A stretch of 64,000 bases of DNA from Thermoanaerobaculia bacterium (lineage in GTDB: Bacteria; Acidobacteriota; Thermoanaerobaculia; Multivoradales; JAHEKO01), in NCBI GenBank assembly GCA_947259925.1, contig CAMYOG010000006.1, forward strand, positions 1 to 64,000, read 5' to 3'. The translations under genes and the position numbers were made by a program. The notes beneath the pieces are model-generated. The model saw only the letters and a list, made by a program, of their open reading frames with translations, searched no databases and was not told the DNA's origin. How positions within the stretch are numbered: position 1 is the stretch's first letter; every line of letters starts with the position of its first letter. Of the stretch, positions 32,776 through 33,361 are shown in pieces.

Positions 32776-32923
32776 GGGCCCAGACCAAGCTAGAGGAAGA
32801 CCCTGATCCTACCGTCAAACCGTGTCGATTCAACCTGTTGCGTATGGTAGAGGCTGCGGATGCCGGGTGGCTGGCCGGGTGGCATGGAAGGGCTCTCTCC
32901 TCCGGTACGGTGTTCCAGGGCGT

Positions 32924-33108
32924 GCCGATCGAGTCCTAGGGGCCGAGAGTCTCCCTCCGCCGGTACGGCGCCCTTCAGTCGGACTTTGGCGGCTAGCGGG
33001 CGCCTCATCTGCGGCTGCGCTGCCACCCTCCGCAGACTCCTTCGGTCGTACCGGCGCTTGCCTGGACGCCCTTGGAGCAAGACTCTCGGCCCCTAGGACT
33101 CGATCGGC
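32924..33108 (+). repeat. Structured 185-nt repeat element, copy 1
   Basis: The element is bounded by a perfect 29-bp inverted repeat (32924-32952 and 33080-33108, core gtcctaggggccgagagtct). Inside are three blocks shared with copy 2: ccggtacggcgccct near 32960, a 27-nt core at 32996-33022 (containing cgcctcatctgcggctgcgc), and cggcgcttgcctggacgccc near 33052. ggcgccc and gggcgcc can form an inner stem. No ORF or transposase is present. Confidence 0.8.
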
Positions 33109-33176
33109 CTCCATCTGAGCATTTGCGAACGAGAAGCTCTGCGAGAAACCGCCCTCACGCTACCGAGAGTGCGAAA

Positions 33177-33361
33177 GGTTGTCTGCTTTGGGGCCGAAGG
33201 GCCTCTCTCCAGAGGGCGTCCAGGCAAGCGCCGAGTGGGCCCACGCAGGGCACTCATGGATCCCAGCGCAGCCGCAGATGAGGCGCCCGCTCTCCTCCGC
33301 AGGTAGAGTGCAGGGCGCCGTACCGGAGGAGAGAGGCCCTTCGGCCCCAAAGCAGACAACC
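33177..33361 (-). repeat. Structured 185-nt repeat element, copy 2 (inverted)
   Basis: This copy has a perfect 34-bp inverted repeat at its ends (33177-33210 and 33328-33361, containing ggggccgaagggcctctctc) and the same three inner blocks as copy 1 in reverse orientation. The 27-nt core (33264-33290) is identical. Its end-stem sequence differs from copy 1, yet each copy pairs perfectly with itself. Total length is also exactly 185 nt. Confidence 0.8.

Follow-up and report, generated by a model that had tools for sequence, protein, structure and literature searches.

The window analysed here, a stretch of 64,000 nucleotides from a draft genome of a Thermoanaerobaculia bacterium (G000), carries a pair of hairpin elements, A and B, between two divergent genes. 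To the left of the pair lies an ORF of 117 residues on the minus strand, for which no Pfam or NCBIfam match was found, and to the right a plus-strand gene for an MFS transporter. The 3' end of each element points at a gene start, with the start codons 40 and about 150 bp from the elements, and no promoter-like or terminator-like site was found in the intergenic region that holds them. The features, scored where indicated with a covariance model (R1) that includes both A and B, are as follows:

32924..33108, minus strand: element A, whole hairpin, 185 bp, 129.2 bits with R1 (A included in the model)
33177..33361, plus strand: element B, whole hairpin, 185 bp, 120.5 bits with R1 (B included in the model)
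33080..33108, minus strand: A, 5' arm of the basal stem P1, perfect over 29 bp, 94% over 35
32924..32952, minus strand: A, 3' arm of P1
33177..33210, plus strand: B, 5' arm of P1, perfect over 34 bp
33328..33361, plus strand: B, 3' arm of P1
33054..33062, minus strand: A, 5' strand of P3, GGC-AA-GCGC, from the alignment
33013..33020, minus strand: A, 3' strand of P3, GCGC-A-GCC, from the alignment
32998..33004, minus strand: A, 5' strand of P4, GGCGCCC, from the alignment
32967..32973, minus strand: A, 3' strand of P4, GGGCGCC, from the alignment
33223..33231, plus strand: B, 5' strand of P3, GGC-AA-GCGC, paired by RNAalifold with 33266-33273
33266..33273, plus strand: B, 3' strand of P3, GCGC-A-GCC, paired by RNAalifold
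33282..33288, plus strand: B, 5' strand of P4, GGCGCCC, partner 33313-33319
33313..33319, plus strand: B, 3' strand of P4, GGGCGCC
32887..32910, minus strand: truncated third copy, the 3' end of a B-like core, 96% identical to B positions 142-166

An earlier reading of the window from its letters alone had described two elements of equal length on opposite strands, with end stems that are perfect yet unlike in sequence, and an extra fragment ahead of the first copy. All of this holds: A and B are both exactly 185 nt, their stems run to 29 and 34 bp, and the fragment is the truncated copy at 32887-32910. The identical core of that reading is also present, but at 28 nt it is one longer than the 27 nt claimed (32995-33022 against 33264-33291); a second identical block measures 21 nt (33052-33072 against 33213-33233), and other blocks are likewise common to A and B. 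Both elements fold stably, with z-scores of -11.1 for B and -9.7 for A, and none of 200 shuffles was equally stable. On contig C30 of the same genome (L038:1449-1552), an intact copy is followed by two solo 3'-end fragments like the one at 32887-32910.

The sequence-only reading had allowed for the case that no further copies exist. A search of the 4.7-Mb draft genome with Blast and R1 finds about 20, many of them paired or clustered, several having stems of 23-48 bp and a total length near 171-200 nt. Among relatives, 24 of 148 genomes matched, and these belong to the family of the window's own genome (f1) and to one genus (g11) in another family of the same order; the matching named contigs are from Thermoanaerobaculia, many labelled Holophagales, and from Candidatus Multivorans. 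A second covariance model, R2, built from g11 copies only, counts 7 to 58 copies per genome in ten g11 genomes. Across the phylum it matches 15 of 396 Acidobacteriota genomes, all of them g11 except G000, in a search in which only eight candidates were scored per genome under strict filters; most f1 copies escape R2, and this result bounds the g11 type and not the whole family. Its match to a copy on contig C1 of G000 is clear (57 bits, E 1.3e-8), and within the window it ranks A first (18.5 bits, E 0.022) and B second (16.2 bits, E 0.066), on the expected strands and with weak E-values. Judged by these matches, the g11 and G000 copies are homologous across families.

No Rfam release 15 family exceeds its gathering threshold in the window, and a laxer scan gave only chance-level matches to miRNA, lncRNA and snoRNA families. 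The view that the family is undescribed stands with respect to Rfam 15 and to a literature search that named this class of element; the family is apparently uncatalogued and seen only in one lineage of Acidobacteriota. Pattern-scan matches in genome and viral contigs included many due to chance. The model bore out those from Thermoanaerobaculia; no viral contig was confirmed as carrying the family. Loci from Planctomycetaceae (L157), Betaproteobacteria (L143) and Anderseniella (L112) reached only 21-24 bits after preselection by the same motif and were not counted as members. Anderseniella, an alphaproteobacterium, has several multi-copy loci matching GAGGCAAGCG...AGCGCAGCCG (L101, L112, L113, L167 and L170), with an R1 score of 21 bits for L112 and, for L101 at least, a position inside a long stem. 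These loci are possibly a distant analogue or convergent, and we have not accepted them as members.

Copies in relatives have a common architecture, in which a basal stem of 34-36 bp (P1, mostly 33-36 bp in g11 copies) encloses two inner helices, P3 and P4, the whole element measuring about 175-190 bp across the family. In g11 copies P3 pairs GGC-AA-GCG with CGC-A-GCC, leaving an AA/A internal loop, and P4 contains tandem G.A/A.G pairs, found in 24/24 and 22/24 copies respectively. The tandem G.A is retained in P4 of the G000 copies C48 and C42, A and B being Watson-Crick there, and unpaired purines are conserved in the g11 alignment. The P3 pair GGC/GCC is replaced by GCC/GGC in one G000 copy (C17p) and in three distinct g11 copies. 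Both-sided change occurs at 14 of the 29 scored pairs, amounting to 62 cells against 20.9 expected, a value that none of 500 shuffles attained; four of five covariation measures lie above all 500 shuffles and the fifth was reached by 14 of them, all five standing well clear of controls with slid alignments, which gave 3-11 cells as against the 62 observed. The covariation proposed for the stems of A and B is thus seen in P1 and also in P3 and P4, and where it might have vanished on aligning more copies, it grows. Covariation beyond phylogeny, as looked for in a structured RNA, is present in several helices, with template switching as a confounder for P1. The P1 arms differ between copies, so that the shared terminal inverted repeats of a DDE-mobilised MITE are not found; recurrence in g11 is limited to short motifs at the ends (TCCA on the left, GGG on the right), and looking between such motifs for larger, autonomous versions gave ordinary copies only.

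Mismatches within P1 are unevenly divided between G.T and A.C. On the GGCAAGCG strand G.T outnumbers A.C by 57 to 15 across 51 locus clusters, counted once per locus cluster and position (p 7e-7, a value that is inexact given related sequences and alignment choices). The same bias is found by cluster, 27 favouring G.T and 4 A.C, and in the outer 22 bp of P1 (41 G.T, 12 A.C). Because strand-symmetric mutation and repair would yield equal numbers, this favours a fold maintained on the GGCAAGCG strand, either as RNA or as single-stranded DNA, though hairpin repair of unequal efficiency on one strand could also be a source of the bias. Three observations speak for a functional fold on one strand, namely that P3 and P4 covary, that the G.A pairs are conserved and that the mismatches are strand-asymmetric. 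They are also points in favour of a structured RNA that benefits the host, with one strand transcribed into a three-helix fold that works either in cis, close to gene ends, or in trans, and with the long stem selected for processing or stability; the conserved unpaired purines fit such an RNA equally.

Where the elements lie relative to genes bears on this possibility. At 48 independent loci, nearly all from relatives and with genes called by a simple GC-position script rather than a gene finder, the gene past the 3' end of the element is convergent in 35, its stop codon usually 1-70 nt away, and at 30 of the 48 no other gene end is nearer than this stop codon, against 7 for the mirror case. 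The window pair breaks this stop-codon rule. Opposite-orientation neighbours within about 2 kb are head-to-head in all cases among the matches listed. At 18 of the 48 loci both adjoining genes are antisense to the folded strand, where read-through would not make the RNA; this speaks against a host RNA, as do the window's intergenic region without a promoter-like or terminator-like site and the variation from 7 to 58 copies between congeners.

Comparison of orthologous copies over 76 species pairs points in more than one direction. Median identity is 95.7% for the arms, 89.6% for the cores, 70% for the upstream flank and 95.5% for the downstream flank, which is mostly coding; the arms are thus conserved like coding ends and far above the upstream flank, as would suit a host RNA. 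In one species (G019, L233) the element stands the other way round between its flanks, and 177 bp of it are identical to the orthologues in G040 and G034 (L244 and L285). That this identity is kept in three species while the flanks are 85-99% identical again favours a host RNA, which we regard as possible, if on the unlikely side, and as the main rival to a mobile repeat. Changes in P1 between orthologues comprise 17 double changes from one Watson-Crick pair to another, 17 single changes to G.T, 6 to A.C and 14 to other mismatches, and at one locus the likely path leads from G-C (G019, G040) via G.A (G045) to T-A (G059). That the arms might be the target copied in inverted form was considered early and abandoned, the arms of orthologues and related copies being homologous and changing pair by pair. 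In three comparisons the core types differ although the arms are kept, at about 96-98% identity (L269 and L263 against L377; L265 against L258 and L273; L281 against L291). Core exchange in such arm-retaining orthologues is probably due to conversion.

Could the perfect stems, then, be mainly a product of mutation? Template switching between the arms of an inverted repeat homogenises the arms and inverts the spacer (PMC8604942), and in long perfect inverted repeats it might do so with no need for selection on folding. The one clean inversion with an identical element, the arms left unchanged while cores were replaced, and the double changes being about as frequent as single ones all agree with such a process. 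The asymmetry between G.T and A.C is not expected from it, except where hairpin formation and repair take place chiefly on a single strand. Nor would it lead one to expect that P3 and P4 covary or that G.A pairs are conserved, and it leaves unexplained how the elements are oriented towards gene ends; as the principal account we think it improbable. Nevertheless, homogenisation at the DNA level also acts in this family, as the inversion and the core exchanges indicate, and stem covariation alone is for this reason no proof of selection. The claim that compensatory change implies selection on folding accordingly survives in part: it gains from the inner-helix covariation and the strand asymmetry and loses from inversion and core exchange with the arms kept. 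Some of the covariation seen in the arms can have a mutational origin.

While these comparisons concern change in place, what can be said of movement? One site (L267) carries an element in G068 and G058 and is empty in nine other species. The empty site in G019, G040 and G064 reads GCCGCACCCGCAGTGG, and the occupied one in G068 GCCGCACCCG-ATGCGTCCA-element-GGGTGACA-CCCGCAGTGG, which fits a possible insertion with a duplication of 4-5 bp (CCCG or ACCCG), in one case only. Seemingly empty sites at L256 are internal deletions, and other differences in presence and absence look like deletions or, as at L289 and L243, changes in tandem copy number. At these two loci (L289:3794-4362 and L243:11203-11664) copies stand in tandem triplicate or duplicate with a period of about 200-300 bp, and their number varies between species.

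Three kinds of enzyme were sought as candidates for spreading the family: reverse transcriptase, integron integrase and REP-associated tyrosine transposase (RAYT). RVT_1 has no match in G000 and one weak match among 10 g11 genomes (G050), and TIGR02249, the integron integrase model, stays under its cut-off in G000 and all g11 genomes, with Xer-level scores only. In integrons, attC sites are recognised through the folding of a single strand and are found directly downstream of stop codons. The family resembles them in that a one-strand fold rather than a sequence seems to be kept and in its position after stop codons in relatives; in contrast to attC sites it has a three-helix core, it comes without an integron integrase, and its neighbours are ordinary syntenic genes, not cassettes. 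With neither enzyme found beyond the one weak match, it is extremely improbable that the elements are attC sites or are spread by a reverse transcriptase.

G000 and 7 of the 10 g11 genomes searched each have one Y1_Tnp gene, which scores as, or near, the RAYT model, and REPs also cluster near stop codons (PMC12306157). These points favour a REPIN-like family moved by this single-copy Y1 transposase, but in three g11 genomes (L426:5571-6567, L425:5568-6526 and L424:4756-5735) the RAYT-like gene is flanked on both sides by REPIN-like repeats of its own, a different family of the form CTGGGTGCGCGGGTC-TTCT-GACCCGC (core GCGGGTC-TTCT-GACCCGC) and its inverse. No confident R1 or R2 match was found in the 6-12.5 kb around the RAYT of seven g11 genomes, and in G000 a family copy is about 5 kb off. 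Furthermore, G019, G034 and G059 have no Y1_Tnp match at E <= 0.001, in draft genomes that may be incomplete, yet carry many copies. Mobilisation by the RAYT is therefore very unlikely. Adjoining the RAYT-like gene on contig C1 of G000 is an ORF (L422:8766-9779) that resembles an IS110-family transposase, as judged by eye from the translation only. In the genomes searched, neither reverse transcriptase nor integron integrase nor RAYT explains the spread of the family, and no transposase was tied to it.

We give about even weight to the reading that A and B are copies in a lineage-specific family of small, non-autonomous, intergenic elements of mobile type. They would be mobile elements recognised by structure, and possibly transcribed. 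Under such a scheme, an activity acting in trans would have spread the copies, recognising the single strand that carries GGCAAGCG in its folded form and not the stem sequence; given recognition by fold, the stem would be free to drift provided that pairing holds. After insertion, the stems would stay paired through selection on the fold of the GGCAAGCG strand together with template switching between the arms, and conversion among copies would keep the cores alike. Against this reading, the stems of resident copies remain perfect as species diverge, beyond what a purely selfish element that decays after insertion should show. The lack of a transposase tied to the family, the one empty site with its merely possible duplication and the window pair's departure from the stop-codon rule also count against it. 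A stronger form, namely a mobile element of a wholly new kind, with the folded strand as its sole recognised feature, locus-specific stems of 34-36 bp kept perfect and cores swapped, all without reverse transcriptase, integron integrase or resident RAYT, we consider doubtful.

In habit the family is like ERIC, REPIN and MITE-like repeats, and in sequence it is unrelated to them. With ERIC (a 127-bp enterobacterial repeat) and MITE-like sequences (PMC2229807, PMC10969869) it shares small size, intergenic position, multiple non-coding copies, a long perfect or imperfect inverted repeat, the lack of a known autonomous gene and a patchy presence at orthologous sites. It differs in that each locus has an outer stem of its own and the copies have only the folded core in common, a conserved three-helix structure with tandem G.A pairs, and in having no family-wide terminal sequence. 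REP and REPIN sequences with their RAYTs (PMC3116915, PMC12306157) are comparable as hairpins in many copies, often near stop codons, and a RAYT occurs in many of the present genomes; in contrast to the short REP hairpins, the elements here are 175-190 nt long with a stem of 34-36 bp, and the RAYTs examined are flanked by another repeat. The structured RNAs of Rfam 15 are alike in covarying helices and conserved unpaired purines, with no Rfam family matching.

The family adds to dispersed structured repeats a case in which the stems and cores of the same genomes follow different evolutionary paths. It makes testable what share of the covariation in long bacterial hairpins comes from selection on folding and what share from template switching between arms. 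Where long perfect stems covary, which is commonly taken as evidence of RNA structure, a control for strand asymmetry is called for, such as the count of G.T to A.C mismatches.
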